NCBI GenBank assembly: GCA_027492875.1
Contig: JAPUDV010000057.1
Coordinates: 13,766 to 77,765, forward strand
DNA length: 64,000 bases
Direction of reading: 5' to 3'
Source of the DNA: Candidatus Competibacteraceae bacterium
GTDB taxonomy: Bacteria; Pseudomonadota; Gammaproteobacteria; Competibacterales; Competibacteraceae
Positions 6,813 to 56,301 of the stretch are shown one piece after another. Both the position numbers and the translations under genes were made by a program. The first letter of the stretch is position 1. Every line of letters begins with the position of its first letter. The notes below the pieces were generated by a model. The model was not told the origin of the DNA, searched no databases, and saw only the letters and a list, made by a program, of their open reading frames with translations.

Positions 6813-7559
6813 ATGCGCCAAGTGGATTTTCTGATCGCGGGCACCCAGAAAGGCGGTACGACGGCGCTGGATCTGTATTTGCGTACCCATCCCGAACTGT
6901 GCATGGCAACCCGGAAAGAGGTGCATTTTTTTGACCGGGATGACTATTTTCAAGGAGATGCAGTAGATTATTCGGCGTACCACTCGTTCTTTAGCCCCAA
7001 CGCATCCCAACGTTTGCTGGGAGAAGCCACGCCGATTTACCTGTACTGGCACAGCGCACCGCGACGGATCTGGGCATACAACCCTCGAATGAAGATCATC
7101 GTAATTTTGCGCAATCCCATCGAGCGCGCCTATTCCCACTGGAATATGGAGCGGGATCGAGACGCGGATTTCCTACCCTTTTGGGAAGCCATCCAGCAGG
7201 AGCGAGAACGTTGCCGGGAGGCATTGCCCCAGCAGCACCGGGTTTATTCCTATGTTGATCGCGGTTTTTACACCGAGCAGTTGAGAAGGCTATGGCGCTA
7301 TTTCCCGCCGGAACAAATGCTGATTCTCCGACATGAAGCCTTGCGGGAAACGCCACAGCCGGTTCTGGACCAGATTTGCGATTTCCTCGGCGTGGCTTGC
7401 TCGTCGGTCGCGACGACCATCAATGCCCATTCGCGCCCCTATGCGACGACCATGACCGAGCGGGAAACAGCGTATTTACGGTGGCTATTTGAATACGACA
7501 TCAGAGCGCTGGAACGGATGTTGGGATGGGATTGCAGCGCGTGGCTGGCGGATCATTGA
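6813..7559 (+). CDS. PAPS-dependent sulfotransferase
   Basis: 248 residues. The 5'-phosphosulfate loop AGTQKGGTTAL is at residues 7-17, and the 3'-phosphate-binding stretch VILRNPIERAYSHW follows in the middle, the two diagnostic motifs of the sulfotransferase fold. The family transfers sulfate from PAPS to a hydroxyl or amine. Position at the end of a glycosyltransferase operon suggests that sugar or glycan residues are sulfated. The length suits a minimal soluble single-domain enzyme, and no membrane segment is visible. It converges on the prolyl isomerase gene with 72 bp between stops. Confidence 0.9.
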   Translation: MRQVDFLIAGTQKGGTTALDLYLRTHPELCMATRKEVHFFDRDDYFQGDAVDYSAYHSFFSPNASQRLLGEATPIYLYWHSAPRRIWAYNPRMKIIVILRNPIERAYSHWNMERDRDADFLPFWEAIQQERERCREALPQQHRVYSYVDRGFYTEQLRRLWRYFPPEQMLILRHEALRETPQPVLDQICDFLGVACSSVATTINAHSRPYATTMTERETAYLRWLFEYDIRALERMLGWDCSAWLADH

Positions 7560-7581: not shown

Positions 7582-7606
7582 TCCCCTCTCCCACGGGGAG
7601 AGGGGA
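7582..7606. repeat. CT/GA palindrome between convergent genes
   Basis: CCCCTCTCCC (7583-7592) and GGGAGAGGGG (7596-7605) form a 10-bp stem with a 3-nt loop, extended by a T:A pair. It lies just after the sulfotransferase stop, with no T run on either strand, so it may be a weak bidirectional terminator. It belongs to the same CT/GA palindrome type as copies found inside coding regions at 20,977 and 21,238. Confidence 0.6.
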
Positions 7607-7631: not shown

Positions 7632-8612
7632 CTATCGAACGGGGGGCAGAGGGGGTGGAGATGGCGGGGGAGCATTGGGCACGCCAAGCGCACCGGCTCC
7701 TCCAGTCAGGGCATTGATCATCCCTAGATTGAAGGCATCCGGCTTCGGATAGAAGCGCACGACGTACTCTTTATGGTTGGTATCTTGGAAATCCTTGGTC
7801 AGTTTCTCGAGAATCCGGGCCTTGACTTGTTCGAAAGGCGGCACGGTTTCAGGTTGGCGCGAAATCAGCTTGATGATATGGTAGCCGTATTGGGTCTCGA
7901 CCACGCCGCTCAGTTCACCGGGTTGCAAGGCGAACGCGACATCTTCAAACGGTTTCACCAGCGTACCTCGCGTCACCAGCTTCGGGAGTATACCGCCCTG
8001 CCGGGCCGATGCTTTGTCATCCGAATTCTTCCGCGCCAATTCGCTAAAGTCGGCGCCGCCGCGCAGTTCCGCCAATAAGGCCTCAGCCCGTTTGCGCTTT
8101 TCACCGTTGGGATCCTCGCAGGGGCACAGGGGCGCATTGATGAGGATATGCGCCACCTCGAGTTGCTCGGGCCGGGTAAATTCCTTGCGGTGGGTCTGGT
8201 AGTACTCCTGGGCCAGATCGGTGAAGTCGGGCTGCTTGAGACCCGCCTTGAACTGGTCGACGACCGCGCTCACTAACACCTTGCGCTGGGCCATCTGCAA
8301 TTGAGCCTGGATGTCGGGCTGGTCAGGTATTTTCAGACGTTCCGCCTCCCGAACCAACCGCTCCTCGGTATACAGCTCCAGCAGAAACTCCTGCAGGGTG
8401 GTGAGGTCGTGTTCGATGCCGGAACGCTGTTTGGGCGGTAACCCCAACAGCGCCTTTTGGTAATCCGCGACGGTAATGGTTAGTTCAGAGTCCTTGACCA
8501 AGGGGGTTTCAGGCGGGAGCAAACCGCCAAGCGCCGTCTGCTCGGCCCGGACGGTCGTTGCGGCAATAACCAGAATAGCGGTGGCTATAAGCCGAATCAG
8601 TACATTCATCAT
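7632..8612 (-). CDS. Periplasmic PpiC/SurA-type peptidyl-prolyl cis-trans isomerase
   Basis: 326 residues from an ATGATG pair; the longer reading gives an N-terminus that would bury the signal peptide. The signal sequence starts NVLIRLIATAILV and is probably cut after VRA. A SurA-N-like helical region precedes one parvulin domain (about 150-255) with LEVAHILINA, the DFSELARKNSDD helix, GGILPKL and YGYHIIKL. The tail is proline-rich (PPPSPPPLPP). The role is folding or chaperoning secreted proteins in the periplasm. It lies just downstream of a strong terminator that closes the gene of the adjacent secreted protein. An extra insert, PLCPCEDPNGEK, lies within the parvulin domain. Confidence 0.9.
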   Translation of the reverse strand: MMNVLIRLIATAILVIAATTVRAEQTALGGLLPPETPLVKDSELTITVADYQKALLGLPPKQRSGIEHDLTTLQEFLLELYTEERLVREAERLKIPDQPDIQAQLQMAQRKVLVSAVVDQFKAGLKQPDFTDLAQEYYQTHRKEFTRPEQLEVAHILINAPLCPCEDPNGEKRKRAEALLAELRGGADFSELARKNSDDKASARQGGILPKLVTRGTLVKPFEDVAFALQPGELSGVVETQYGYHIIKLISRQPETVPPFEQVKARILEKLTKDFQDTNHKEYVVRFYPKPDAFNLGMINALTGGAGALGVPNAPPPSPPPLPPVR

Positions 8613-8724
8613 AAAAAATGACACCAGTAGCGATTTTACGGATATTGCGAAATCACTCGAGCACTTCGCGGCGTTTACCAAGAAGAACGCCGATGCCGAG
8701 TCAAGACCGGCATCGGCGTCCGAT

Positions 8725-8753
8725 GGAAAAAACGCTCCCGCGAGGGAGCGTTT
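8725..8753 (-). terminator. Rho-independent terminator after the first secreted-protein gene
   Basis: On the minus strand, AAACGCTCCC pairs with GGGAGCGTTT around a TCGC loop and runs into TTTTTTCC. It starts 10 nt past the stop codon of the 598-residue secreted protein and ahead of the prolyl isomerase gene. Confidence 0.9.
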
Positions 8754-8762
8754 GGCAGGCGA

Positions 8763-10559
8763 TTAAGGCAACTGGCAGGTGCTGTCCCCGGCCGCCTTGC
8801 TGCAGGGAATACCACGCCCCAAATAAGCATGATCAGCCAGGTAAGCGTAGTTCTTGAGCGCATCGAAGCCGATGTTCAAGGCACGCTGCTTGATCATGAA
8901 CCCGATCGCCGGCAAACCGTTACCCGGCAATTGATTGAGGGCGGTTCCCGTACTGTAGCCGGACTTCGCAGCCAGCGGCTTGGCCAAATTCATATCCAAC
9001 CAGCCGAACTGCTGGGTAAAACCCGGTACGATCTGGCCACTCAGATCCAGCCCCAACCGAGACTCAAAGATGCGATCATTGGCGGAAAACCGAATGATGT
9101 TGGTCTCGAAGCACAGTGACAACGCATCGGTGCGCGGCACGGGCGATTCGATCACATTAATATCACTGAGCACCAGGGGCTTTTCGCTACGATCATAAGC
9201 GGTGGCGCCCACCTGATTGCAGGATTGGCCGTCGGTCACGCCCGAGAACGCTTCCTGGAACGGCGGAATCGGAACCTGCAACATGCGCTGCTGCCAGTCG
9301 GGGTTGAAACCGGCCGGGAACCGCCGCGCATTGTTGGCCGCCAGCGGACTCGGCCCCTTGTCCACGAAGAAGTTTTTGGTGGGGTGAGTGATCACCCACT
9401 CGGTGGTGACGCCCAGATTGGAGTTATAGCTCCATTCGTTAACCACCCGCGCCGCCCGCAGGACTTCGCTCACCGCCAGATAGCCGTATCCATACGGCCC
9501 GAGCTCCGTGGTCGTCCCCAAGCCCAAGTCGTCGTTGACGGTATACGAGGCGTTGGGATACGCATCGGCCAAGGTCGGCTCGAGGCTGTCAAATCCAGGC
9601 TGGTTGGATTGCGCCGCGATCAGGTTGGGACAGTCTTGATTAATCCCTGGATCCCAGTTCGGATTCCGGGCTCCCGAGATCGGGTTAAAGAACATATTAG
9701 TGGTGGACGGTTGGCCCACACCGGCCGGCGGATTGGCGAAGCAGGTTCTTGGCCCAACGACTTTGCCGAGTTCCGGATGGTAATGGCCGATCCGGACGAA
9801 GTTAGCCAGATGGGTCGCCGGGCCACCCGCCGAAATGCCCCGCTCGACATTGAGGAAGTTGTAATTGCCTTTCAGCGCGTTGATCGGCTCGCCGTACTTG
9901 CTGGCGGTCGCGACAATGTTGGCTTGCTGGAACTCGCTGACACAATCACCCGGATCTCCATCCTTGTATCCCTCAACGATGGCGACGATGTAGCCTTCAT
10001 AGCCACGGTCGTTCGTAGAGAGGCCACCGGCCAGATAGGAACCGGATCCGACGTAGGGCACCGGATAAAAGCCGTCGTTTTGAGCGGAGTGATCGCTATT
10101 GGTCGCCGAATAGCCAAAATTGCTGAACGAAAACTCGGTTTTATTCGGCACGGTGCAGGTGGTTTCACCGACCGACTTAACAAATTTAGCCGGAACGTCG
10201 CTGATGGGCGGAGTCCCGAAGATCGGCGGGACATAGTTATCGCCCTGCGTGACATACCCGGCAAACACGTCTTTCGGCGACAGCACGACCGTGAAGTCCA
10301 GGACTTCGCGAGAGTTGTAGCCCTCGAAGAAGCGGAGCTTGACGGCCACGCTCTTATCGCTGGTGTTGGTCAGGTTGAGCAGCGTCTGCCAGCAATCGCT
10401 GGTGCTGCAACGGGCGGTGTAGTACGGAAAGATGACCACATCGCCCACGCCCTGAGCCGAGATATTGACGGCGCCCGCGGACGGTGCAAACGCGCCCCCG
10501 ACGAGACCGCCCATCGCGGTCGCCAGCGTTAGCGCCATGGAGAGCTTGCTGCGTTTCAT
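8763..10559 (-). CDS. Large secreted protein, paralogue 1 (unknown family)
   Basis: 598 residues. The ATG at 10559 is chosen because AAGGAGA lies 5 nt upstream. The N-terminus MKRSKLSMALTLATAMGG is a signal peptide with predicted cleavage after SAGA. The mature part opens with GDVVIFPYYTARC and carries TNTSD, FEGYNSRE, DVFAGYV, YEGYIVAIVEGY, SLCFETNIIRF and, near the end, GLPAIGFMIKQRAL. At least eight cysteines are spread through it, so disulfides are likely. It aligns along its whole length with the next gene, a tandem duplicate. No catalytic motif, membrane anchor or sorting signal is visible. It is probably exported by Sec and abundant, judging by the strong ribosome site and terminator. 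I do not recognise the family; a structural extracellular or cell-surface role is inference. Confidence 0.82.
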   Translation of the reverse strand: MKRSKLSMALTLATAMGGLVGGAFAPSAGAVNISAQGVGDVVIFPYYTARCSTSDCWQTLLNLTNTSDKSVAVKLRFFEGYNSREVLDFTVVLSPKDVFAGYVTQGDNYVPPIFGTPPISDVPAKFVKSVGETTCTVPNKTEFSFSNFGYSATNSDHSAQNDGFYPVPYVGSGSYLAGGLSTNDRGYEGYIVAIVEGYKDGDPGDCVSEFQQANIVATASKYGEPINALKGNYNFLNVERGISAGGPATHLANFVRIGHYHPELGKVVGPRTCFANPPAGVGQPSTTNMFFNPISGARNPNWDPGINQDCPNLIAAQSNQPGFDSLEPTLADAYPNASYTVNDDLGLGTTTELGPYGYGYLAVSEVLRAARVVNEWSYNSNLGVTTEWVITHPTKNFFVDKGPSPLAANNARRFPAGFNPDWQQRMLQVPIPPFQEAFSGVTDGQSCNQVGATAYDRSEKPLVLSDINVIESPVPRTDALSLCFETNIIRFSANDRIFESRLGLDLSGQIVPGFTQQFGWLDMNLAKPLAAKSGYSTGTALNQLPGNGLPAIGFMIKQRALNIGFDALKNYAYLADHAYLGRGIPCSKAAGDSTCQLP

Positions 10560-10682
10560 GCCTTTCTCCTTACATTTCAAATTGTTAACCCCGAACAGGG
10601 CTGAAATCTATAGCTAAGGACCCTTAAACTGAGAGAGGGATCACTCCGTAGAGGCGATTAGGCCAATTCCCCGCTGCCGCCA

Positions 10683-10698
10683 GCGCCATCCTTGGCGC
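10683..10698. repeat. Short perfect inverted repeat between the paralogous secreted-protein genes
   Basis: GCGCCA-TCCT-TGGCGC, a 6-bp stem with a 4-nt loop and no adjoining T tract. It may pause or stabilise the mRNA between the paralogues; it is weak evidence for termination. Confidence 0.35.
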
Positions 10699-10762
10699 GA
10701 ACTGACTCCTCGACGCGGCAGGGAACCTCTCGTTCAAATGCCGCTACCCCCATATTTGCGCT

Positions 10763-12604
10763 TCAGGGCGCCGTCTGCAGACCCTCGTAGGGAACCTTGC
10801 GCGAATGATCAATCAGATAAGCGAAGTTCTTGAAGTAATCCCCCGACAAGGCGCGCTGTTTGATCATGAAGCCAATCGCTGGCAGACCCGAGCCTAGCAG
10901 TGGACCGGTGTTCTGCAAAAACCCGCCAGGTTTCACTGCCCCATACTGCGCGGCCGGCGATGTGGTCAAGTTCAGGTCCATCCAACCGGCGGGGACGGGA
11001 TCGCCCCCAAAGGCGCTGCCAACTCCCTTAGTTAGATCCAGGGTCAACTTCGAATCCAGGACGGGACGCCCGGCGGAGAACTGGATCACGTTGGTCTCGA
11101 AGCACAGCGACAGGTCATCGTTGCGCGGCAGCGGCGACTGGATGACGCTACCTTCGGTGAGAGTAGTACCTACTTCGTTACGATTGTAAACCACAGGCGT
11201 AACCTGATTGCAGGATTGACCTTCGGTGATGGTCGAGAACCCCTCGGCAAACGGCGGCAACGGAATAGGATAGAAGAACGGAGCCGGGAAACGCCGCTCG
11301 TTGAACGCCGCCATGGGACCCCAGTACTTCCAGCTATCCACATAGAAGTTCTTGGTCGGATGCGTCACCACCCATTCGGTACTTACACCCAGCGCGGGGT
11401 TGAAACTCCATTCATTGATCAGCTTAGCCGCCCGCAACACCTCGCCTACCGCCAGGAAGCCAAAGCCGTTGGGCCACACCCCTATCACTGGCAGGGAGGT
11501 GGGATCGATGAGGCCGATCGAACCAGGCCCGTTCGCATAGGAATCGTAGGAATCCGCCAAGCTCGGTTCGAGGTGATCATAACCGGGCTGGTCCGATTGC
11601 GCCGTAATCAGGTTGGGGCACCATGTGCTATTGGCTGTAGTGTTACCCAGCGCCGGCGCCCAAGCCAGGTTCCGCAAATCGTAAACCGGATCGAAGCGCA
11701 TATTGCCCGTAGCCTGCGCGGTGCTGGCAACGCAGCCGCCGCTCAAACCAGGTTGTGGAGCATCGTCATCCGGGCTGATCCGAATGAAGTTCGCCAAAGT
11801 CGTGGCCGAACCGCCCGCCGCGACGCCGCGCTTGACATTCAGGAGGTTGTAATTGCCCTTCAGCGCGTTGATCGGCTCGCCGAACTCGTTGGCGGTCAGG
11901 ACGATGTTCGCTTTGGTGAAGGATGACCGGACGGCGTCGCAATTCCCCCCAGGCACCGTCTCGCCATCATCGGCGCTACCCGTGACATGGGCGCTGACAA
12001 AGCTGGGGCTGTACAGACCTCGTGTTACCTGAGGCAAGGTAGCTGCGGGAGCGTGCCCCTCGACGATGGCGACGATATACCCTTCGTAGGCACGACCGTT
12101 CGAGGACATGACGCCGTCAACCGAGGCGTCGTGATCCCGGTTGGTCGACGAGTAGCCAAAATTGCTGAACGGCAAACCCGCCGTCTGCGAGATGTAGGGC
12201 ACGGTACAGGTGGTGTCGCCGTGCGCCTTGACGAAGCGCGCCGGAGTATCCTTGGCGGGATAATCAGCGCCCTTGTCGACGTAACCGGCAAACACGTCGT
12301 GCGGTGACATCACCACCGTGAAGTCCAGGGCGTCGCGGGAGTTGTAGCCCTCCAGGAACTTGAGCTTGACGACCAGGGTTTGATCGCTGGTATTGGTGAT
12401 ATTGATCAGCGTCTCCCAGCAATCCTCAACGATGCCCAGTTCGTTGGTGTGGCATCGGGCCGTGTAATACGGGAATATCAATACATCGCCCAAGTTCTGA
12501 GCCGCGATGCTGATAGCGCCCGCAGATGGTGTATACGCGGCCCCGACCAGACCGCCCATCGCGGTCGCCAGCGCCAGCGCCGTGGAAAGCTTGCTACGTT
12601 TCAT
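10763..12604 (-). CDS. Large secreted protein, paralogue 2 (unknown family)
   Basis: 613 residues from the ATG at 12604, which has AAGGAGAT just upstream; longer in-frame readings lack a ribosome site. The signal peptide MKRSKLSTALALATAMGG is nearly identical to that of paralogue 1. Shared landmarks are GDVLIFPYYTARC, TNTSDQ, LEGYNSRDALDF, DVFAGYV, YEGYIVAIVEG, LSLCFETNVIQFS and GLPAIGFMIKQRAL. Differences are indels, such as a longer loop around residues 165-190 and a cysteine-containing VEDCW segment. It follows the NTF2-like gene by 107 bp containing a perfect 14-bp palindrome. Probable role: an exported extracellular or surface structural protein; no enzyme motif is visible. Confidence 0.82.
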   Translation of the reverse strand: MKRSKLSTALALATAMGGLVGAAYTPSAGAISIAAQNLGDVLIFPYYTARCHTNELGIVEDCWETLINITNTSDQTLVVKLKFLEGYNSRDALDFTVVMSPHDVFAGYVDKGADYPAKDTPARFVKAHGDTTCTVPYISQTAGLPFSNFGYSSTNRDHDASVDGVMSSNGRAYEGYIVAIVEGHAPAATLPQVTRGLYSPSFVSAHVTGSADDGETVPGGNCDAVRSSFTKANIVLTANEFGEPINALKGNYNLLNVKRGVAAGGSATTLANFIRISPDDDAPQPGLSGGCVASTAQATGNMRFDPVYDLRNLAWAPALGNTTANSTWCPNLITAQSDQPGYDHLEPSLADSYDSYANGPGSIGLIDPTSLPVIGVWPNGFGFLAVGEVLRAAKLINEWSFNPALGVSTEWVVTHPTKNFYVDSWKYWGPMAAFNERRFPAPFFYPIPLPPFAEGFSTITEGQSCNQVTPVVYNRNEVGTTLTEGSVIQSPLPRNDDLSLCFETNVIQFSAGRPVLDSKLTLDLTKGVGSAFGGDPVPAGWMDLNLTTSPAAQYGAVKPGGFLQNTGPLLGSGLPAIGFMIKQRALSGDYFKNFAYLIDHSRKVPYEGLQTAP

Positions 12605-12676
12605 GCCTATCTCCTTAAGTGAGTAACCCCTGCAACGGGTTAGGTAGTAGTCAAGGACGCAAACCAGAGATGTAAA

Positions 12677-12690
12677 GTGGCGATCGCCAC
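12677..12690. promoter_or_regulatory. Perfect 14-bp palindrome GTGGCGATCGCCAC
   Basis: The palindrome, with core GGCGATCGCC, sits in the 107-bp gap between the NTF2-like gene and secreted-protein paralogue 2. It could be an operator for a dimeric regulator or an mRNA hairpin that protects the downstream message. The core also resembles the HIP1 repeat of cyanobacteria, which may be coincidence. Confidence 0.45.
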
Positions 12691-12711
12691 ACCGAAAAGT
12701 ATGGAAACGCA

Positions 12712-13170
12712 TCAATTTTGTTGATGCCACCATTGGCCGTCTTTACGCAACCAAATTTCCCTAACTGTCTGTTTCATATCGAAAGCTTGTTCTTCCTTCC
12801 CCGGATCAGCATAACGATACGCAACTTCCAGCTGGATTCTCGCCACATCGGGGTCATCATAGTCAATTTGCTTTACAGTTACCATACGCCACTCGATCTG
12901 GCCGCCGTTTTGAGACCGGAGCTGACTTGGCGTATAGATCGCCCGATAGGCAGGGGTTTCAAACTGATAGATCGCATCGAAATTGCGGTCGATGAGCGCC
13001 TGCCAGCGCGCTAGAACCCGTTCCTTCAGCAGAGCTTCGTCGGCGGTGGGCACCACGACTTTCGGCGGTGGGACTTGAGCGGACGCGGCGGGCACGGGCA
13101 TCTGGTCGGCCGCCCAGACACCGTACCCAGCCAAGGCCAGCACCACCCCCAAAATCACCCTGTGCGTCAT
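12712..13170 (-). CDS. Small secreted NTF2-like domain protein
   Basis: 152 residues. The ATG at 13170 is preferred over one two codons earlier because AGGGGGAG lies 8 nt before it. The signal peptide (MTHRVILGVVLALAGYGVWA) is followed by a Pro-rich spacer and a compact domain: LLKERVLARWQALIDRNFD, then a YTPSQLRS segment, ending VREIWLRKDGQWWHQQN. The same pattern, with a WYHQ end and a TPDQYRQ segment, forms the C-terminus of the tripartite protein at 43,467-45,863. That places it in the SnoaL/NTF2-like fold class (inference). Being first in line before two secreted-protein genes, it may be a periplasmic partner or escort. No catalytic residues are evident. Confidence 0.8.
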   Translation of the reverse strand: MTHRVILGVVLALAGYGVWAADQMPVPAASAQVPPPKVVVPTADEALLKERVLARWQALIDRNFDAIYQFETPAYRAIYTPSQLRSQNGGQIEWRMVTVKQIDYDDPDVARIQLEVAYRYADPGKEEQAFDMKQTVREIWLRKDGQWWHQQN

Positions 13171-13178
13171 AGCCATCG

Positions 13179-13281: not shown

Positions 13282-13310
13282 ATCCTAACAAGCAACCAGC
13301 CGGGTGTCAA
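13282..13310 (-). promoter_or_regulatory. Sigma-70-type promoter for the NTF2-like/secreted-protein genes
   Basis: Minus strand: a perfect TTGACA (-35, 13305-13310), 17-bp spacer, then TAGGAT (-10, 13282-13287). It lies about 110 bp upstream of the NTF2-like gene. A second, weaker candidate (TTGTGT, 16 bp, TATACT) is at 13401-13428. The 13,171-13,471 interval holds these signals and no gene. Confidence 0.55.
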
Positions 13311-13471: not shown

Positions 13472-16400
13472 CTACATCCCCCCTGCCAAGGCTGCTTCGA
13501 CAAACCTCTCAAACTCCCGAATGGCTTGCCGATCCTCGAACAGTTCCCCGCTGGCCTCGCGCAGCCGGCGGCCGAACTCGATCCGGTAGTCCGGCTCGGT
13601 GGCAAACCGCAACGCCCGTTCGATGTAGTCCTCGGGGTCGGCGGCGATGCCGTCATCCAAGCCCATCTGCCGATAGGCGGCGCAGGTCAAGCGTCCCCGG
13701 CCAAAATCTCCCGGCAGGGTCACCACGGGTTTACCCACCGAGAATACTTCGTAGGCCGTAACGCCACCGCCAAAATGCACGGTATCCAGCATGACATCCG
13801 CCAAGGAAAGCAGATTTAAATACTCCTGGTGCGGCAACCGGGCTAGAAAGCGTACCCGGTCGATCACTTCGGGCAGATTGGCTTGCATGCGCTGGCGCAG
13901 TTGTGCCGTTACCAGCGGTTGAGCATCCTCGATCAGCACCACTAACCCGCGCGGGTCTCGCCGCAGGATGCCGTCCATCAAACCATCAAAGTCAGGATGT
14001 AGTTTGCGTGGGTTTTGTACGCACAAATAGATATGCTGGTCAGCGGTCAGGCCGAAGCGCTCCCGTCCCACCGTCGCTCCCGGTGGCTCAGGACGGTAAA
14101 AACAGGTTGGCAACCGCTGAAACCGCACTAAACGCTCGCTGTAATACGCTTCACCATCTGCGGGCTCCAGATGCTGGGAGGACAGATAGTAATCGATTTG
14201 TGGGATGCCACTGGTCACCGGCCAACCCCAACCGGTGCATTGAACCGGCGCCAAGCGGAAAAACGGCAGGAAGTAGTTGACGCTATCTGTACCCACCTCC
14301 CAATAATATAGAATGTCGAAACGGGTTTGGCGGATCGTTTCCAGGCTCCGATCAAACCGCACGGGCAGCGGCAAATAGCGGATATTGGGGTTGGCGATGG
14401 CCGCTCGTAAGACCTGCTCCCCACCCTGCAGGCTGCACATCACGATCAACTCGAAGCGCCGGGCGGGCAAACCGTTCAAGATGCCGCGCATGCATTTGGC
14501 AAATATCCCCTCGTGCCCCCGCGTCACCACAAAGCCCACGCGCGGTTTTCCACCAGCCAGCGGCAGGGCGGTCACCTCCGGTAGCAGGGGATGAAACAAC
14601 GCGGCCCACGCCTCCTTCAACGGTCGGTCGTCACGACCCTGATAAGCCAGATATAAGGGAGGTTCAAAGCCACTGGCGTGCAACTGCCGCAGATCCAGCC
14701 GCAGGCCAGGCTGGGCGCGCAGTTGTTTCAACCGGACCATCAGGCCGGCTCGATACCTATCGATTTCCGGGTTGCCGGCGGGGATCGCCGGACACAGGCT
14801 ATCGGTCCGCAGGCGCAGCAGAGGGTCGTCCGGTTCTCGCGCCAAAATAGCCTGATAGCAGGCTCGCGCGTCTTCGTTCAAACCCTGCCGTTCGAGCACT
14901 GTCCCCAGATTGCGCCGCGCCTCCACCAGATCAGGCTTGTAGCGCAGGGCCTGACGGAACGCTTCAGCGGCCTCGTCCAACCGGTTCTCCGCATCCCGCG
15001 CCTGCCCGAGATTGTTGTGCGCCTCGGGAAAATTCGGTCGTAATTGCAGCGCCCGTTGGTAACAGCCGGCGGCTCCGGCATAATTTCCCTGCTCCAGTAG
15101 AGTGTTGCCCAAACTGTAGTGGGCAAACGCATGATCCGGCTTGAGTTGCAGCGCCCGCTGATAACACGCGAACGCCTCGTCCAGCCGGCCTTGCTCCCTT
15201 AGCGCATTGGCCAGGCTGACATGGGTTTCCGCCAGTTGCGGGGCCAGCCGCAGGGCCTGCCGGTAACTGTGCTCGGCCGCTACCGGGTCGCCCTGCCGGA
15301 ACAGGGCGCCTCCCAGGTTGTGATGGTAGGTCGGCTGCTTGTCGTTCAATTCGATAGCCCGGCGGATGGCCTGCACCGCACCGGCCTGATCGCCCCGCCG
15401 GTCGCGGATTACACCCAGCAGATGGTGGACATCCGGGTGCCGGGGGAGATGCGTCAAAAGCATCTGGCAAATCTCCAGTGCGGTCTCGAAATAGCCCAGA
15501 TGCGAAGCTCGGGAAGCACCCTCGAATAGTTGAGGAATGAACAGCGGAACACAGTTTTTTTTAAAATAAGGCAAGAGATTTTTTTGATAGTCTTCCATGC
15601 GTTTTTTATCTTTATCAGAATCGAGGCTTCTCGTTTGGCTTTCATGGTGATAGGCAACGGCGTGACCGATTTGATAATTTTTTCTACCCAACCGCAACAT
15701 CTCCAGATTTAACTCAACATCTTCAAAGTATTCATTATATTTTTCATTAAAATAGAATTTTTCGAATATGGATCGCTCTATCATCAAAAAGACTGACAAA
15801 TTGGCGACAACTTCTATTGTATCACTATCATATTTATAGTAACTAAACTTATTTCGATGCAAAATACTAAAAACTTTATCTGTGCCAAATAAAAATTCTA
15901 TACCATTATGCTGAATTGAGCCATCTTCATAATGCAATCGAATTCCTAACGTCCCTATATTATTTTTTTTATTTTTAAACAAGTATAAACACCGATCAAT
16001 AGCGTCGTTCAATAATTCGATATTGCTGCTACAAAAAATAATATGGCTGCTATTTTTTGAAAGATATTGTTTTACAATATCGTTGTTAAGCTGTGAAAAA
16101 TTATAACTGCTATATTTTTCGATAATTTTTATCTTAGCCAGATTAGATCTTTTATCTATTTTTTTTATCCAATTCGTCAATTTATCTTTATTATCGATTG
16201 TAAGACCAGCCCCGAAAACAATAATTTCATACCGCGCAATACGGGTGCGGCTAATAATTGACTGAATACAATTTATTACCGATTCACCTTGATCTTTTAT
16301 AGTCACAATAATCGAAATGAGAAAATTATCTGGGTTAAATTTTTTTATAGCCAGCTTATCAAATTCAATTTTTTCCGGCTTAACACTACAGGGAAGCGAA

Positions 16401-17056
16401 CTGCTAAAAATTTTTGAAAAAATTAACCGGTTCTTTTCCCATTCCTGGTCGAAAGATCCGCCTGATTTATGCGTCAAATCAACATCGAAAGTAACACCTA
16501 CCTTAACTCCAGCCAAGTGATTTGCCAAAGTGAACGATATATCATAATAGTGAAAACCCTGAAATTTTTCATCAAAATTCTCACGAATTCTATTTCTATC
16601 GACCGCAATAAAAACCCCATCCAGACAAACAACTTGAATAGGACGATCATACTTATTTGACATAGTAGTATCAAATATTTTGCCATTAATCTCATGTTTA
16701 AGCATTCCCACCGATCTATATTCTATAGAAAACCACTTTTCAGCAATATCGTCAGCATTTTTCATTAAATCGGTTGTGCCAGCAACTCCCAATATCCCAT
16801 AATCAGTATCCTTAAATTGTTTTAAAAGAGACTTTCCCCAGTTTTTATTATTAAAGATAATATCATCATGAATAAAGACAATTATATCATACTTCGCTTC
16901 TTTCAAGCCTCTATTGTATAACTCCGTTAATGAGTATTTTCTATTATTTAGATAAGGTATTATTTCGGCATTTTGCACACCGACCGTTTTCTGAATATGA
17001 TCAATGAACCCAGATCTAATTTCTCTAGCGCTAAAAACAATTGATAGCGACATCAT
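13472..17056 (-). CDS. Chimeric GT2-GT2-TPR-GT41 (OGT/SPINDLY-like) glycosyltransferase
   Basis: About 1194 residues from an ATGATG pair behind GAAGAG. Domain 1 (about 1-235), with IVFIHDDIIF and QVVCLDGVFIAVDR, resembles the StrF-type GT2 family. Domain 2 (about 245-505) is GT2-like, with LISIIVTIKDQG and NEYFEDVELN. TPR repeats follow (about 515-745), seen as recurring AxxxYxxALxLxP patterns. A GT41-like C-terminus (about 835-1190) holds RGHEGIFAKC, CVQNPRKLHPDF (the conserved Lys of OGT) and DTVHFGGGVTAYEV. GT41 enzymes usually transfer GlcNAc or glucose to Ser/Thr/Asn of proteins. The N-terminal half is AT-rich and the TPR-GT41 half GC-rich, with a sharp change near 15,560. It lies directly upstream of the NTF2-like/secreted-protein genes. 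Substrate unknown. Confidence 0.88.
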   Translation of the reverse strand: MMSLSIVFSAREIRSGFIDHIQKTVGVQNAEIIPYLNNRKYSLTELYNRGLKEAKYDIIVFIHDDIIFNNKNWGKSLLKQFKDTDYGILGVAGTTDLMKNADDIAEKWFSIEYRSVGMLKHEINGKIFDTTMSNKYDRPIQVVCLDGVFIAVDRNRIRENFDEKFQGFHYYDISFTLANHLAGVKVGVTFDVDLTHKSGGSFDQEWEKNRLIFSKIFSSSLPCSVKPEKIEFDKLAIKKFNPDNFLISIIVTIKDQGESVINCIQSIISRTRIARYEIIVFGAGLTIDNKDKLTNWIKKIDKRSNLAKIKIIEKYSSYNFSQLNNDIVKQYLSKNSSHIIFCSSNIELLNDAIDRCLYLFKNKKNNIGTLGIRLHYEDGSIQHNGIEFLFGTDKVFSILHRNKFSYYKYDSDTIEVVANLSVFLMIERSIFEKFYFNEKYNEYFEDVELNLEMLRLGRKNYQIGHAVAYHHESQTRSLDSDKDKKRMEDYQKNLLPYFKKNCVPLFIPQLFEGASRASHLGYFETALEICQMLLTHLPRHPDVHHLLGVIRDRRGDQAGAVQAIRRAIELNDKQPTYHHNLGGALFRQGDPVAAEHSYRQALRLAPQLAETHVSLANALREQGRLDEAFACYQRALQLKPDHAFAHYSLGNTLLEQGNYAGAAGCYQRALQLRPNFPEAHNNLGQARDAENRLDEAAEAFRQALRYKPDLVEARRNLGTVLERQGLNEDARACYQAILAREPDDPLLRLRTDSLCPAIPAGNPEIDRYRAGLMVRLKQLRAQPGLRLDLRQLHASGFEPPLYLAYQGRDDRPLKEAWAALFHPLLPEVTALPLAGGKPRVGFVVTRGHEGIFAKCMRGILNGLPARRFELIVMCSLQGGEQVLRAAIANPNIRYLPLPVRFDRSLETIRQTRFDILYYWEVGTDSVNYFLPFFRLAPVQCTGWGWPVTSGIPQIDYYLSSQHLEPADGEAYYSERLVRFQRLPTCFYRPEPPGATVGRERFGLTADQHIYLCVQNPRKLHPDFDGLMDGILRRDPRGLVVLIEDAQPLVTAQLRQRMQANLPEVIDRVRFLARLPHQEYLNLLSLADVMLDTVHFGGGVTAYEVFSVGKPVVTLPGDFGRGRLTCAAYRQMGLDDGIAADPEDYIERALRFATEPDYRIEFGRRLREASGELFEDRQAIREFERFVEAALAGGM

Positions 17057-17405
17057 CGGCTCTTCAATGCTTCTTGTGGATTTCAGGCAGGCTTGGGAGC
17101 TTTTTACAGAAATCAAGATTATCGCCAGCTAAAATCTAGTGAGCTGAAGATCGGCGGACTGCAATCGCCGACCGCAAGATAAAGCGACTGAAAGCTGGTG
17201 GTTTATGCCAAGGACCGAGCACCCTTCGGGCGAACTAGAGCCGCCCCAGAAAAATCAAGCAACAATATATTGATTCAATTATAAAAATCTTGTCTTACCG
17301 ACAAAAAGGATTATCAAGCTTTGCAGTGCCAAGCAGGAGTGTTGTACACTTAAATTAAAGACATGCTTTCCGATAAACTCAATTCTATAATTAACTGAGA
17401 CACTC
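17057..17405. other. Divergent intergenic region, 349 bp
   Basis: It separates the GT2-TPR-GT41 gene (-) from the methyltransferase gene (+) and should hold promoters for both. A GC-richer island (about 17,130-17,250) contains the hairpin TCGGCG...CGCCGA (about 17,151-17,172). It reads in two frames like a decayed protein end (ELKIGGLQS, then IADRKIKRLKAGG). No intact gene or RNA was recognised. Confidence 0.4.
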
Positions 17406-35746: not shown

Positions 35747-38206
35747 CTAACAGAAACGTCGATACTGCCGGCCTAGCCAACGCACTGGCCGAGTAAGCCA
35801 CCAAGAATGAGAGGAATAAATTTCTTGCATTGCCCGCTCCAGATCCACAACCTGCTGCTGTAGCATACCAGAACGCCACCGCTGTTGCTCAATTTCCTGA
35901 CACTGCCCGGCAATATGTTGATTCAAATCAGCCAGTGCCCGCTCCTTGTCCGCTAACGCCCGCTCCTTGTCCGCTAACGCCCGCTCCTTGTCCGCTAATA
36001 AATCCGCTAGTGCCTTTTTCTTTGCCAAGAGACCATCTTGCCAAGCCTTGACATCCGCTTCAATCAATATTCTGTCACTAGGCCATTCAATTAGATTCTT
36101 GAGTATCTCTATCAATCGACTGCGTCCAAAATTATCGATTATCGAATCTGTTAATTCACAATAAATATACTCTATCTTAAATATCTCATCGAATACCAAA
36201 TAATTAAATACCCTAGTGAATACACAATTCTTAATGACCGACGTATACTGTTCCAAGTATGCATCACAAGCCATAGAACCAAAGAGAAACTCAGATTTTT
36301 CTACTGTATATCGTTTTCCATCTACAATATCAAGCAACAAGTCATTGACGGTTTTAGGTAGAGCATCCCATTCAATCAGGCGGGCACTTGGGTAACCACT
36401 CAATCGTTCGATAAAAGCGCCTAGCTTGGGTGCCACAATCGGCAATCCGGAATTCAACGCAGTACTTAAAGTATAGGAGTAAGTCTCTGGCCATTGCGCT
36501 GGAAAGTAGATAATATCTGCTTTTTCAGAAGCGATAAGTGCATGAAGATTGCAATCCAAATAAGGCCCACTGAACGTGAGCGGTAGGTCTAGTTCGCCAT
36601 CACCCAATACACCTATAGGTAGTTTTTCATAATAGGAAAAACCCAGTACCCTAAAAGAAAGCGGCAGATTTCTCTCTCTAGCATCTCTCGCGCACGACTC
36701 CAACTGTAATACTCCTTTCGCGAGAGACATCATTCCCAATACTAACACCTTAATTGTATGAAGCTCTGGGTGGGGAAGGTAAGTGAAGCTCGCCTCAGGA
36801 ATATACTTTCTAATGCGATTGATCGTATCCTGGGATGGACTGATTACCCGCTCCGCACCCACCAAGAGATTATGAAAATAGCTACGCCAAGCGATAATGT
36901 CGAGTTGCCATTGGGGAGGGCGTTCCTCCAGACATGTGTTACAACCACTCACGTCTGGTTCACCACAATAACGCCCATCAGGCAGTGTCAGGTTGAACTG
37001 TGGACAAATCGGGAAGTAATCATGTAGCGTATAATCGTAAGGCACTCGCAGTTTCTGTGGTAGCAAGGCTATTAAGGGATGGTGACCGATCAAATGATGA
37101 AAATGAACACGTATTATCGCCACTTGTTGGAGTAGTCTGACTAAATTTTCGAAAGTAACCGGTATCGCAAAATATAGTTTAAACTCTTCACCTCTTCTGG
37201 CCCATTCCAAAGTCACCTTATCCTCTGCATCCGGCCTCAGAATCAATATCTCAAATTGGGGTTCAAGCAAACGCACCAAATCCTGAACATGTTTTTCCGT
37301 GCCACCGCCAAGATGGTGGGTGACAAACAGCAAACAGGGTTTTCCAAACCGTATAAGCCGCGCCCAATCGACGCGCCTGCGTACCTGTCGTGCAGGATCA
37401 ATCGCTACATGGGACGCGATCAATTGATCGTAAAAAGGATAAAGAATCCGTAGCCGCTTCATGGCGTTTCGAGCTAAAAACTGATGCTCCGATCCAAAGG
37501 ATACCGCACCTTGGTGATAGACAAAGATATCGGCACAGAGCAGGTGTTTAAACCCAAGTTCGCTACCACGCAAACAAAAGTCATTTTCCTCGCCGTACCC
37601 GCGACCGAAACGCTGCACATCAAAGTAACCCACCTGCTCGATACAACGACGAGTGATATACATACAGAACCCAACCGCTGTAGGGATTTCCACATGACGT
37701 GCAGTATTTATCTCGGCAAATAATACATCCAATTCCGCTAGTTTATTTTCGGCGGGAAGAAACGAGTTGTTCTCGCAAAAACGCGGGTAGCTGCAAATAG
37801 TGGCATTGTTGGAAAACGGAGTCGCCGTGCCAATCATCGGATCGCTGCTCGCGTGGCGGCGCAAACGATCTAGCCAGTCGCCGTGTACCTCTGTATCACT
37901 GTTAAGCAGCACTACATCGCGGTCGGAATGCAACACAATGCCACGGTTGACAGCGTTGACGAAACCGGTATTGATCGGATTTTCCAACAGGGTGAAAGCG
38001 CCAGTTTCTGCCCGCTGCCACAGAAAAGCCGTTAGTTCCGGTTCCGGGCTGCAATCGTTAATGACTACAATCTCATAAGTGGTCTGCTGGGGAAACGCCA
38101 ATACGCTCTCCAGGCAGCGCCGGGTTTCATCTAACCCACGGTAAACCGGGATGATCACGTCGACCACGGGCGCACTGCCCGTAGCAGACTCAATATCGGT
38201 GGTCAC
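35747..38206 (-). CDS. GT2-GT4-coiled-coil fusion glycosyltransferase
   Basis: 819 residues from a GTG in a GTGA overlap with wzt. GT2 domain (about 12-265): DVIIPVYRGLDETRRCL, INDCSPEPE, VVLLNSDTEVHGDWL, GYGEENDFC. GT4-like domain (about 290-640): LLFVTHHLGGGTEKHV, then a Cys-rich insert (CGEPDVSGCNTC) and VISPSQDTI. A coiled coil (about 725-790) contains three exact heptads ADKERAL from a 21-bp tandem DNA repeat. The tail is SHSWWLTRPVRWLGR. It is the last gene of the FG-GAP-PpiC/TPR-GT41/wzm/wzt operon, so it probably helps to build or cap the exported glycan; the coil may set chain length, as in WbdD-type molecular rulers (inference). Confidence 0.88.
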   Translation of the reverse strand: MTTDIESATGSAPVVDVIIPVYRGLDETRRCLESVLAFPQQTTYEIVVINDCSPEPELTAFLWQRAETGAFTLLENPINTGFVNAVNRGIVLHSDRDVVLLNSDTEVHGDWLDRLRRHASSDPMIGTATPFSNNATICSYPRFCENNSFLPAENKLAELDVLFAEINTARHVEIPTAVGFCMYITRRCIEQVGYFDVQRFGRGYGEENDFCLRGSELGFKHLLCADIFVYHQGAVSFGSEHQFLARNAMKRLRILYPFYDQLIASHVAIDPARQVRRRVDWARLIRFGKPCLLFVTHHLGGGTEKHVQDLVRLLEPQFEILILRPDAEDKVTLEWARRGEEFKLYFAIPVTFENLVRLLQQVAIIRVHFHHLIGHHPLIALLPQKLRVPYDYTLHDYFPICPQFNLTLPDGRYCGEPDVSGCNTCLEERPPQWQLDIIAWRSYFHNLLVGAERVISPSQDTINRIRKYIPEASFTYLPHPELHTIKVLVLGMMSLAKGVLQLESCARDARERNLPLSFRVLGFSYYEKLPIGVLGDGELDLPLTFSGPYLDCNLHALIASEKADIIYFPAQWPETYSYTLSTALNSGLPIVAPKLGAFIERLSGYPSARLIEWDALPKTVNDLLLDIVDGKRYTVEKSEFLFGSMACDAYLEQYTSVIKNCVFTRVFNYLVFDEIFKIEYIYCELTDSIIDNFGRSRLIEILKNLIEWPSDRILIEADVKAWQDGLLAKKKALADLLADKERALADKERALADKERALADLNQHIAGQCQEIEQQRWRSGMLQQQVVDLERAMQEIYSSHSWWLTRPVRWLGRQYRRFC
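35937..35999. repeat. Three 21-bp tandem repeats within the coiled-coil region
   Basis: Three head-to-tail copies of a 21-bp unit beginning GCCCGCTCC (plus strand); the third differs at its last base. Each encodes one heptad of the coiled coil, so copy-number change alters coil length in frame. Confidence 0.9.
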
Positions 38207-39612
38207 GCAAACCGCTCCCGAACCGGTTCCGAGACATCATCGGGGGTAATGCACAATTCGATATCCAGCATCGGAATACCCATCAGCCCTTGATGAACGC
38301 TGCTGGTATGTGACTTAAAAATCAACATATCATTACACCAACAATGAATAATGTGCTCCTGCTGAGTACCGGAAGCCGCCGCGATATCCACAGCGTACTC
38401 TCCAACCGATAGCACCGGCATGTAGAAGGTAAAGCGCGCGATCAAGTGTTGACCAGCAACCATGCGCTGAGGATCGGCGGCATAAGTCAGATAGGTATTA
38501 TCTCCGAACAGATTTTGACCAAGCCGATCCTTAATAAAAAAACCGATAATCGGGCTGTCCAGATCGACCAGAACCCGCGCCTTTACAATTAGGGTAACCA
38601 GCTCACCACCAACGATCCAGTGCAGCGCATAGCCCTGCTCGTCTTCAAAATAAACGTCTTCGATCCGAATTGCCCTAGTGCCGTAACCCTCAACTTCGTG
38701 GCAAAACTCGAACAACTCCAGATCGTTGCGAAATCGGGTCTGGTTCAGAAACGCCAGCCGCTGGTCCACTCGCTCCACCCGAGCGCACGGATCACCCGCG
38801 ATGACAGGGGGTTGCCGTGATGGCATGACCGGGATGCCCATGTGCTGAGATTCGCGCAAGGTCGCCAGGTAGTGCTCGCAAACCTCCTTGGCCGGACCCG
38901 ACTCACGCATTTGACCGTGTTCCAGCCACAACACATGATCGCAGAGATTAACCACCGCTGCAGTATCGTGACTGACAAAAAACAGCGTGCCGTGCTCCTG
39001 AAACTTGCGGAGAAAGCGCATGCATTTCTGCACGAAAAACATGTCACCGACCGCCAACGCCTCGTCAATAACCAGGATATCGGCACGGACATGAGCGGCA
39101 ACGGCAAAGGCCAACCGTACCGCCATGCCGCTGGAATAGGTCTTAACCGGCTGATCGATAAATTCGCCAATATCGGCAAAAGCCAGAATCTCGGGCAGGT
39201 AGCGTTCGATTTCCGCGTCATTGAGGCCGAGAATCGCGGCGTTGAGATAAACATTCTCGCGACCGGTAAACTCTGGATTAAAACCGGTGCCCAGCTCCAG
39301 CAGCGCCGCCACCCGACCCCGCACTTCCAATACCCCCGTGGTCGGAGCCAGTGTACCGCAGAGCATTTTGAGCAAAGTCGATTTACCGGATCCGTTCCGA
39401 CCAATCACTCCGAACGTCTGACCGTGCTGAACCGTGAACGACACGTTCCGCAGGGCCCAGAATTCGCGGTAGTAGCAGCGTCGGCCACGCCATAACATCT
39501 GCTTCAAGCGATCCTGCGGCCGTTCGTAGATCTGATAGCATTTTCCCATCTCGCGCACTTCGATCACGGCTTGCTCGTCAGTCAATCGGTCGATGGCAGG
39601 TTCAGAGGACAT
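38203..39612 (-). CDS. wzt: ABC transporter ATPase for polysaccharide export, Wzt type
   Basis: 469 residues from ATG 39612, overlapping the wzm stop by 11 nt; longer readings run into wzm. Nucleotide-binding domain (about 20-260): Walker A GRNGSGKST, signature YSSGMAVRLAF, Walker B ILVIDEALAVGD, switch SHD. The C-terminal Wzt domain (about 300-455) is a beta-sandwich that in O9a/O8-type systems binds the modified non-reducing end of the glycan before export. With Wzm it moves undecaprenyl-linked polysaccharide across the inner membrane. A terminator-modification enzyme would be expected; the methyltransferase genes in this window are candidates (inference). Confidence 0.93.
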   Translation of the reverse strand: MSSEPAIDRLTDEQAVIEVREMGKCYQIYERPQDRLKQMLWRGRRCYYREFWALRNVSFTVQHGQTFGVIGRNGSGKSTLLKMLCGTLAPTTGVLEVRGRVAALLELGTGFNPEFTGRENVYLNAAILGLNDAEIERYLPEILAFADIGEFIDQPVKTYSSGMAVRLAFAVAAHVRADILVIDEALAVGDMFFVQKCMRFLRKFQEHGTLFFVSHDTAAVVNLCDHVLWLEHGQMRESGPAKEVCEHYLATLRESQHMGIPVMPSRQPPVIAGDPCARVERVDQRLAFLNQTRFRNDLELFEFCHEVEGYGTRAIRIEDVYFEDEQGYALHWIVGGELVTLIVKARVLVDLDSPIIGFFIKDRLGQNLFGDNTYLTYAADPQRMVAGQHLIARFTFYMPVLSVGEYAVDIAAASGTQQEHIIHCWCNDMLIFKSHTSSVHQGLMGIPMLDIELCITPDDVSEPVRERFA

Positions 39613-40519
39613 CGGCGAATCCCTTGCGCGTCCGAGCGAACCAATAGGCACCCAGCAGTGCCACCAACAATCCCATGCCCAGACACAATAGATAGTGTTC
39701 CCAAACCGGCGATTGGCCAAACAGAATAATTCCCCGAGTCTGCTCGATCACCAGCGCCAGTGGATTAAATTGGAACCAGTATCGGGCGGATGCCGGTAGG
39801 GCGCTGATCGGATAAAACACCGGACTCATAAACATCAGCAACTGCACCAACGGCACGATCAGCTGCTGGATATCACGGATGTACACCCCTAAAGCAGCCA
39901 AAAACCAGCTCAGCCCCAGCGCAAGCAACAACAGTGGCAGCATCATGACCGGCAATAGCAAAGCTGTCCAAGCCAAGCCATTACCCAAAACCTCTTGCAG
40001 CGATAGAATCACAAACAGTGTGACGGTTAGCGTCAATAGGGCGGAGGTAACCATCACCACTGGCAGCATCTCCAGTGGAAAAATAACATTTTTGACGTAA
40101 TTCTGGTGCGCCAAAATAAGGCCAGGGGCGCGACTGAGGCATTCCGCCAAAAAGTTGTAAAGGGCCATGCCGACGAACAGAATCAATGCCAATTCACTCA
40201 ACGAACTACTGCTATGATCACCCCAACGCATCTTAAAGATCACGCCGAAAAAGAAGGTAAACACCAGCAGTGACAATAGTGGCAGCAGTAGCGACCAGAA
40301 CAGTCCCAGATAGGAGCCCTGGTAACGCTCGGCAAAATCCCGCTTCAACAGTTTCAAAAACAATTGACGCTGCAACCAGGACTCATGGAGAACCCGGTAA
40401 AGTAGCCGATCCTGCCCAAGTCTAGGTTTTGAATTCGCCGGAGAAATCAAATTGAAAATCGACACGTCTTCAGCCAACTGCGAGTTAAGAACCACACGCC
40501 CGGAATCATGCGCTTCCAC
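39602..40519 (-). CDS. wzm: ABC-2 polysaccharide export permease, Wzm type
   Basis: 305 residues from a GTG that overlaps the end of the TPR-GT41 gene by 14 nt. A ~40-residue cytoplasmic N-terminus (KRDFAERYQGSYLGLFWSLL) leads into about six membrane helices typical of ABC-2 permeases, including FTFFFGVIF, LLVALLGAYWF and a conserved PVFYPISALP before the last helices. It forms the channel of the Wzm-Wzt transporter with the next gene. Translational coupling to an OGT-like gene upstream is unusual and notable. Confidence 0.92.
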   Translation of the reverse strand: MEAHDSGRVVLNSQLAEDVSIFNLISPANSKPRLGQDRLLYRVLHESWLQRQLFLKLLKRDFAERYQGSYLGLFWSLLLPLLSLLVFTFFFGVIFKMRWGDHSSSSLSELALILFVGMALYNFLAECLSRAPGLILAHQNYVKNVIFPLEMLPVVMVTSALLTLTVTLFVILSLQEVLGNGLAWTALLLPVMMLPLLLLALGLSWFLAALGVYIRDIQQLIVPLVQLLMFMSPVFYPISALPASARYWFQFNPLALVIEQTRGIILFGQSPVWEHYLLCLGMGLLVALLGAYWFARTRKGFADVL

Positions 40520-45863: not shown

Positions 45864-45925
45864 GACTTTACTCTCGGGTTTAATCAACACCCTTGGATAC
45901 CGACAACGACACAGAATTCCTTCCC

Positions 45926-45961
45926 TCAAAAAGAAACGGCGCCTTTCGCAAGGCACCGTTT
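45926..45961 (-). terminator. Rho-independent terminator after the third secreted-protein gene
   Basis: Minus strand: AAACGGTGCCTT pairs with AAGGCGCCGTTT (one G-T wobble) around GCGA, followed by CTTTTTGAGGG. It lies between the secreted-protein gene and the FG-GAP-PpiC gene, matching the layout at 8,725-8,753. Confidence 0.88.
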
Positions 45962-45994
45962 AGGAAAGCTAACTTCAGATCGGATCAGAGCTGA

Positions 45995-47185: not shown

Positions 47186-47251
47186 TTTGAGGCTCCTTAA
47201 CAAGTAGCAAGGGAGAAGCATCATTCAAGAGAAGTCTCAACGACAGAGTAA

Positions 47252-47351: not shown

Positions 47352-47380
47352 ACTATAAGTGTAGCGCACGGCCCTGTCAA
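47352..47380 (-). promoter_or_regulatory. Near-consensus sigma-70 promoter, distal, for secreted protein 3
   Basis: TTGACA (47375-47380), 17-bp spacer, TATAGT (47352-47357) on the minus strand. It lies exactly 100 bp upstream of the proximal site, and both follow the word GGTTGAC. Several TTGTTGT(T) words surround it. The 279-bp interval to gspD holds these signals and no gene. Confidence 0.65.
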
Positions 47381-49777: not shown

Positions 49778-49790
49778 GAAAATATAGCCT

Positions 49791-50423
49791 TTATCCATCA
49801 GGTTGTGGCGGCGTGGGAACAACCGACGGCGGAAGCGCGTCGGGCTTTGGCGTAACCACGGGCTGACTGACCGGTTGTACATCCCGGCCACGCCTCGCGC
49901 CAGCCCGTTGGGCGTGCGGCCCAAGCGATTTTTGCGGGCGCACCAACGGCAATTCCTGGGTCGATTGGCCCTTACGCAGCACGACTCGGTCGGGGAAAAT
50001 CGCTTCCAGTAGCCACTCGCCTACTTTTTCTCCCAAGCCAATCCGTACCGTTTTGGCATTGGGCTCCTCGGGTCGCAATAAAGCCTTCTTTGCGCTGGAC
50101 GTGATCATCACCCCCAGCAACGTCAGTTTCTGTTCCGTCTTCGGGGGAGCAGGCGGTCTTTCTGGTGGCGCTTCATCAGGAGGCGGAGGAGGTTCCGGTT
50201 GGCGGGTGGAAATAAACAGCGGATGCAGAACGATCTCGCCATACCGATCCAGCGGCGGTAGTTGAAACGGCCGCATTGGTTCCACTGCCGGCAGTTCGAG
50301 GATGCGGTTGGCACCGACTGCCGCCGGAGGGCGCGGCGGGTGCGCCAGTTGCCAGTACGCGGCAACGGCGGCAACCCCTCCAACCAGCAGCCACAACAAC
50401 AGTCCGGCGCTTCTGGCCATCAT
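49791..50423 (-). CDS. Type II secretion inner-membrane protein, GspC/XpsN type
   Basis: 210 residues; its ATG directly follows the gspM stop. One N-terminal membrane helix (about 5-22), a Pro-rich linker (PPPPPDEAPPERPPAPPK) and a homology-region-like domain (about 95-165: LTLLGVMITSSAKKALL, GEWLLEAIFPDRVVL). A basic, Pro-rich tail follows. Position between gspM and gspD and this layout match XpsN of Xanthomonas, the functional equivalent of GspC that links the inner-membrane platform to the secretin. No separate gspC was seen in the window. Confidence 0.85.
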   Translation of the reverse strand: MMARSAGLLLWLLVGGVAAVAAYWQLAHPPRPPAAVGANRILELPAVEPMRPFQLPPLDRYGEIVLHPLFISTRQPEPPPPPDEAPPERPPAPPKTEQKLTLLGVMITSSAKKALLRPEEPNAKTVRIGLGEKVGEWLLEAIFPDRVVLRKGQSTQELPLVRPQKSLGPHAQRAGARRGRDVQPVSQPVVTPKPDALPPSVVPTPPQPDG

Positions 50424-52150: not shown

Positions 52151-52184
52151 ACAATACAACTTTATGATTCATACTGAGATATCT

Positions 52185-56299: not shown

Positions 56300-56301
56300 G
56301 G

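Follow-up and report, generated by a model that had tools for sequence, protein, structure and literature searches.

Here, we describe two similar gene sets in a 64,000-nucleotide stretch of a 3.8-Mb Candidatus Competibacteraceae genome (contig JAPUDV010000057.1, positions 13,766 to 77,765; the whole stretch is referred to as the window). Both sets lie on the minus strand and combine genes for secreted proteins with a PpiC-type parvulin and an NTF2-like protein. Locus A (7,632–13,176) has the gene order NTF2-like > SEC2 > SEC1 > PpiC, in which SEC1 and SEC2 belong to a family of secreted proteins termed SEC. Locus B (43,467–47,224) has the order SEC3 > a single chain of FG-GAP propeller, PpiC and NTF2 domains, and it stands immediately behind a complete type II secretion system (T2SS) operon. 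The parts of this module almost certainly act together. With moderate confidence, we propose that they form a T2SS-coupled maturation and export module for an abundant, disulfide-bonded cell-surface protein (SEC or SEC3). The genes concerned are:

12712–13176, minus strand: NTF2-like secreted protein of 154 residues (locus A; studied by AF2 model, Foldseek, VIA and family alignment)
10763–12733, minus strand (likely start 12604): SEC2, secreted, SEC family, 50% identical to SEC1
8763–10580, minus strand (likely start 10559): SEC1, secreted, SEC family, paralogue of SEC2
7632–8681, minus strand: PpiC-type parvulin of 349 residues (Pfam Rotamase, E 3e-24; active-site H178 and H268)
45995–47224, minus strand: SEC3, secreted protein, immediately behind GspD
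43467–45956, minus strand (likely start 45863): fusion protein of propeller, degenerate parvulin and NTF2-like domain

A first-pass annotation, made from the sequence alone, had placed a PpiC protein, two secreted paralogues and an NTF2-like protein at locus A, and a third secreted protein beside a PpiC–NTF2 fusion at locus B; all are present on the minus strand where it put them, and the paralogy of SEC1 and SEC2 extends over about 650 alignment columns. Some details needed correction. The NTF2-like reading frame starts at 13,176, the previously given 13,170 being its second ATG. The fused chain contains the PpiC and NTF2 parts but has three domains, an FG-GAP beta-propeller at residues ~40–440 (Pfam FG-GAP_3, E 4e-20) having been overlooked, and its NTF2 part spans residues ~715–822 rather than 694–790.

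Two lines of evidence argue that the parts belong together. First, they are found separate, partly fused and fully fused. In other Competibacteraceae, locus B has the order GspC-GspD > SEC3 > propeller > PpiC > NTF2 > TPR-GT41 > Wzm-Wzt, with SEC3 in the same position behind GspD wherever the contig reaches. Propeller, PpiC and NTF2 are separate neighbouring genes in about ten relatives; in three, propeller and PpiC are fused while NTF2 is separate; and the window genome and one relative (G024) have all three in a single chain, the two fusions being 71% identical. This second, diverged example in G024 argues against an assembly artefact. A further relative (G018) has a different fusion behind GspC-GspD, in which NTF2 is joined to a BNR propeller, and this is an independent event; there (L233:5867–9352), a 507-residue secreted protein of no clear family precedes the fusion, and a GT41 gene is found upstream, too. 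In two genomes of another family of the class (G100 and G306), NTF2 genes adjoin SEC3-type genes, and in G306, SEC3 genes flank a propeller–PpiC pair. The earlier argument that parts separate in one place and fused in another act together is, thus, strongly supported.

Second, the same genes recur side by side in many bacteria. Among 84,980 species genomes scanned, 240 SEC relatives were found, and the best 79 loci were tallied; the tallies count only loci with a long enough flank, describe SEC neighbourhoods since the loci were chosen by SEC similarity, and include several loci from closely related genomes. These 79 loci are from Gamma- and Betaproteobacteria, with hosts including Sedimenticola, Wenzhouxiangella, Dokdonella, Thauera, Thiobacillus, Marinobacterium, Haliea and Pseudomonas. 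The usual order is GspC-GspD > NTF2 > SEC > variable secreted protein > PpiC > Wzm-Wzt > glycosyltransferases, and NTF2 > SEC > PpiC recurs within the Competibacteraceae. An NTF2 gene lies upstream of SEC in 58 of 69 loci, PpiC lies downstream in 54 of 59, the secretin gene gspD lies upstream in 46 of 59, and a Wzt-type exporter is found within 8 kb in 35 of 52. Conversely, all seven strong NTF2 matches in 276 genomes of the class stand beside such genes, five adjoining SEC and two adjoining SEC3-type genes. A genome survey for co-occurrence had been proposed with the first-pass annotation, and these counts show that the genes are co-localised. A Comamonas plasmid has the genes in this order, too, after a T2SS operon and under NCBI names, SEC being called "cell surface protein" there. 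On a Nitratiruptor plasmid (Campylobacterota), a PpiC-NTF2-SEC trio occurs twice with a prepilin-type gene in between, the PpiC there being a weak profile match identified mainly from the record annotation. Also encoded on this 35-kb plasmid (L235) are a serine protease and a glycosyltransferase of the O-linked-glycosylation type, and the plasmid may represent the system in compact form.

The gene between SEC and PpiC merits separate mention. In five loci (L131, L161, L170, L125 and L183), it encodes a secreted protein that is wholly different between species, with TIG repeats, Lcl_C, DUF4214 or phytase-like domains, or none of these. This suggests an exchangeable cargo or partner slot. We considered whether the variable protein is a relative of the FG-GAP propeller but found no sequence relation.

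If surface-glycan regions gather genes for secreted envelope proteins, the module could, in principle, reflect chance or hitch-hiking in such a region. Both loci do lie in a glycosyltransferase-rich region, and genomes carry several PpiC genes. However, at a density of about seven parvulin matches in 3.8 Mb, PpiC is expected in about 1% of 6-kb stretches as opposed to the 54 of 59 observed, the gene order repeats across orders and two phyla, and the parts are also fused. The survey thus contradicts this explanation, which we regard as very improbable.

The two NTF2-like regions are homologous, as the first-pass annotation had presumed when it named a lack of similarity between them as grounds for abandoning its idea. 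The free protein is 30% identical to the C-terminal part of the fusion over 106 residues (blastp, E 3e-6), and the two match in a profile–profile comparison with a probability of 97.9% (E 5e-13). A profile of the free family finds only two matches in the whole window genome, namely the locus A gene and the fusion. The AF2 model of the locus A protein (pLDDT 86, pTM 0.70) matches NTF2-fold proteins in Foldseek (E 2.5e-5) and many NTF2-fold chains in VIA, including 3d9r (Z 12.6, 115 residues at 3.0 Å). Hence, the modeled protein has the cone-shaped alpha+beta arrangement of the NTF2 fold, with helices followed by a curved sheet. By family alignment, most members of the NTF2 family have a lipobox and are lipoproteins; the locus A protein of the window is apparently not.

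One of the two main alternatives is that the NTF2-like lipoprotein is an unrecognised pilotin of the adjacent secretin, serving the machine and not the cargo; in favor of this, it is a small lipoprotein whose gene comes immediately after gspD in many genomes. Three observations make this unlikely: at locus A, in Nitratiruptor and in G100 and G306, NTF2 stands by SEC or SEC3 without an adjoining gspD; the Competibacteraceae proteins have no lipobox; and at locus B, NTF2 comes after PpiC and forms one chain with it and the propeller. We judge it likely that PpiC and NTF2 would serve folding or escort of SEC and SEC3.

The PpiC regions of locus A and of the fusion are also homologous (blastp E 7e-13; profile E 3e-21). 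The locus A protein has a Rotamase domain that scores over the cut-off for PF00639, and its PDB relatives include PpiC, PrsA and SurA. The fusion parvulin (residues ~445–700) matches Pfam Rotamase_2 (E 2e-9) and likewise exceeds the cut-off for PF00639. The two differ in their active sites. Both active-site histidines are present in the locus A protein of the window, each is kept in 9 of 10 locus A members, the two are kept in 49 of 53 and 52 of 53 T2SS-linked PpiC proteins, and all four other parvulins of the window genome have both. At locus B, by contrast, Gln and Glu replace the two histidines in 15 of 15 homologues. Because the fused protein lacks both catalytic residues, isomerase activity is likely only for the PpiC encoded by a separate gene, and the fixed replacements suggest that the locus B parvulin may have a conserved binding role without catalysis. 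In a PpiC tree, the locus A proteins group with T2SS-linked PpiC proteins of other bacteria, and the locus B proteins form a distant, well-supported clade; a simple recent duplication of the whole module, which we considered as the origin of the two loci, is for this reason unsupported.

SEC itself has no consistent match in Pfam, NCBIfam or PDB sequences, and SEC3 has none in PDB sequences. SEC and SEC3 have signal-peptide-like N-termini throughout. Counted from the likely start of SEC1, Cys135 and Cys206 are invariant in 69 of 69 SEC members, and Cys447 and Cys483 are each present in 57 of 69, a pattern that would fit folding in an oxidising compartment. In VIA-align, the SEC structure model (pTM 0.84) matches TM1070 best (Z 6.0, N-terminal sandwich domain); galectin-like VIA rows (Z about 3) were taken as a common sandwich arrangement and not as a relationship. 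The first-pass annotation was right that a third secreted protein, SEC3, accompanies the fusion; its homology to SEC1 and SEC2 is unclear. An initial match included the signal peptide, and mature-chain profiles give E 0.002 with a probability of 14% (reversed control, E 0.33; with more sequences, E 0.004), which is weak, and homology is not claimed. Several copies of SEC or SEC3 occur in individual genomes (G028, G064, G100 and G306), which agrees with a structural surface protein. In Candidatus Contendobacter (L108 and L110), three SEC genes lie in tandem, with more copies elsewhere in one genome, and no NTF2 or PpiC gene adjoins them.

A feature that SEC and SEC3 have in common is a terminator-like hairpin directly after the gene. 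The hairpins and promoter-like sites of the two loci are:

13282–13310, minus strand: promoter-like site TTGACA-17-TAGGAT with TG before the second hexamer, 5' of the NTF2-like gene; the count of such sites in this region is close to chance
8685–8721, minus strand: terminator-like hairpin with a 15-bp stem, between SEC1 and PpiC
7582–7606, minus strand: terminator-like hairpin at the end of locus A
47352–47380, minus strand: promoter-like site TTGACA-17-TATAGT (11/12), between GspD and SEC3
45934–45961, minus strand: terminator-like hairpin after SEC3, ahead of the fusion gene

In the window, such hairpins follow SEC1 and SEC3 and not SEC2. In other genomes, they follow 53 of 56 mid-operon SEC genes, compared to 96 of 554 control adjacent gene pairs and 39 of 151 such pairs separated by 60 bases or more, and they follow SEC3 in 16 of 16 genomes. 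The hairpin sequences vary between genera while the structure is retained, the related genomes not being independent. Promoter-like sites (at least 9/12) lie upstream of SEC in 27 of 70 cases and of SEC3 in 7 of 15, compared to 6 of 56 for PpiC and 1 of 42 for GspD. The simplest reading of hairpins after SEC together with promoter-like sites more often before it is that SEC would be produced in excess of its helpers, like an abundant structural protein with catalytic amounts of a foldase. That SEC and SEC3 share the hairpin also supports their functional equivalence, even though homology is unproven.

These patterns bear on the other main alternative, namely that NTF2, the propeller and the PpiC-like proteins leave the cell together with SEC as subunits of a multi-protein surface structure and are not periplasmic helpers. 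FG-GAP and BNR propellers are common extracellular binding modules, here fused to NTF2, and a degenerate parvulin with fixed replacements, as at locus B, is what a binding domain would look like. Against this, the hairpin and promoter pattern would imply that SEC exceeds PpiC, the NTF2-like proteins of most species are lipoproteins, and the catalytic histidines are retained in the locus A PpiC. We consider a co-exported complex rather improbable and favor helpers that act in the periplasm.

The neighbouring genes point to the secretion route and to a glycan. They comprise:

47465–58008, minus strand: T2SS operon GspD, C, M, L (PilN-type), K, J, I, H, G, F, E
40506–43457, minus strand: TPR + GT41 (O-GlcNAc-transferase-like) protein (Pfam Glyco_transf_41, E 1e-108), its position kept in relatives
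38203–40519, minus strand: Wzm/Wzt-type ABC glycan exporter, permease and ATPase with Wzt_C (Pfam ABC2_membrane, ABC_tran, Wzt_C)

In the T2SS operon, GspD, C, M, L and K were identified by Pfam (Secretin, T2SSC, T2SSM_b, PilN and T2SSK, respectively) and GspE, F and G–J were assigned by gene order and sequence; the same set bears NCBI names in Comamonas. Secretin, inner-membrane parts, pseudopilins and ATPase are, thus, all present. This operon is the neighbour of locus B that tells most. SEC and SEC3 are quite likely to be T2SS cargo. The gene neighbours would also link them to a glycan. Two large TPR proteins, one at 13472–17116 with a GT2-like N-terminus and a weak GT41 match and the other, at 40506–43457, with a full GT41 domain, are candidate glycosylators of surface proteins. 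A sulfotransferase-like protein is encoded at 6813–7559, at the end of the glycosyltransferase run that adjoins locus A, and a sulfated surface glycan is possible.

The T2SS exports folded proteins, which makes a coherent set of the foldase, the escort and the one substrate encoded alongside the machine. To our knowledge, few dedicated periplasmic helpers of T2SS substrates are known. We suggest that the Sec route carries SEC over the inner membrane and that folding takes place in the periplasm, where SEC would form one invariant and, commonly, a second disulfide. PpiC may help SEC as a parvulin foldase, and the NTF2-like protein, in most species an envelope lipoprotein, may act as its holder or escort; at locus B, these tasks would fall to a single chain that joins the NTF2 domain to a pseudo-parvulin and a propeller. 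Folded SEC would then exit through the adjoining T2SS and would probably be glycosylated at the surface, or held there by a glycan, by way of the neighbouring glycosyltransferases and the Wzm/Wzt exporter. The hairpin right after SEC would curb read-through, such that SEC outnumbers its helpers. The dedicated periplasmic folding and escort system proposed in the first-pass annotation, thus, holds as a module, with a role that we infer; what it overlooked is the coupling to the T2SS and the degeneracy of the locus B isomerase.

Several observations weigh against this proposal. Four SEC loci (L108, L143, L175 and L182) have no partner genes. In Competibacteraceae, locus A lies apart from the T2SS, and export of SEC1 and SEC2 by this machine is, therefore, proposed only by analogy. 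The window genome has two further secretins (contigs C55 and C87; L185 and L186), one PilQ-like and the other in a second T2SS locus, and hence a second T2SS-type secretin. The NTF2-like proteins of Competibacteraceae are without the lipobox of their relatives. Finally, the SEC model has no convincing fold match in Foldseek (best E 0.07) or VIA-align, and the term surface protein, therefore, rests on the signal peptide, context and an NCBI name.

If correct, the proposal would assign a function to a large family without a Pfam or NCBIfam model. The module offers a repeated, testable set in which one surface-protein family is combined with an NTF2-fold escort and a parvulin beside a T2SS. Natural fusions tell which parts belong together, and one branch, having lost the histidines, provides a natural experiment on chaperone versus isomerase activity. 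More tentatively, and with somewhat less than even confidence, we envisage a widespread, so far undescribed T2SS branch that carries its own abundant surface protein and a private maturation set: the NTF2-fold lipoprotein as a new kind of periplasmic escort, a parvulin and, in one lineage, the propeller/pseudo-parvulin/NTF2 helper in a single chain. The product would form a glycan-linked coat or matrix of environmental Proteobacteria, granule-forming sludge bacteria included. Wastewater granule bacteria have matrix or surface proteins still to be identified, for which SEC is a candidate. In granules of Ca. Accumulibacter, abundant secreted hypothetical proteins are reported to be 49–58% identical to Paracidovorax "cell surface proteins" (PMC12019908); because a Comamonas SEC protein bears this NCBI name as well, they are a lead.

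All parts of the module except SEC belong to known kinds, and in the open-access literature, we found no earlier description of their combination and no study of the plasmid-borne relatives. The Comamonas and Nitratiruptor genes are true relatives, annotated only as "hypothetical protein" or "cell surface protein." EpsD-family PpiC proteins (TIGR02925) are similar in being envelope PpiC proteins in surface-polymer clusters; however, the module PpiC falls far below the family cut-off in NCBIfam (score 19.1 versus 108.9; E 8e-4). PrsA, SurA and PpiD have a homologous PpiC domain but are general helpers, whereas the module PpiC is tied to one protein family and, in its locus B version, lacks the catalytic histidines. 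The genes for Lif/LipH and for CpaB, which serves CpaA in Acinetobacter, encode periplasmic helpers and lie beside that of one T2SS substrate that folds before export. The module resembles these systems in having helpers beside a putative T2SS substrate. Lif and CpaB, however, have another fold and act as steric chaperones anchored in the membrane, while the part of helper would here fall to a parvulin and a lipoprotein of the NTF2 fold, and the module often stands behind the T2SS genes themselves. Altogether, we rate the combination as a T2SS with a cognate substrate and private maturation factors.

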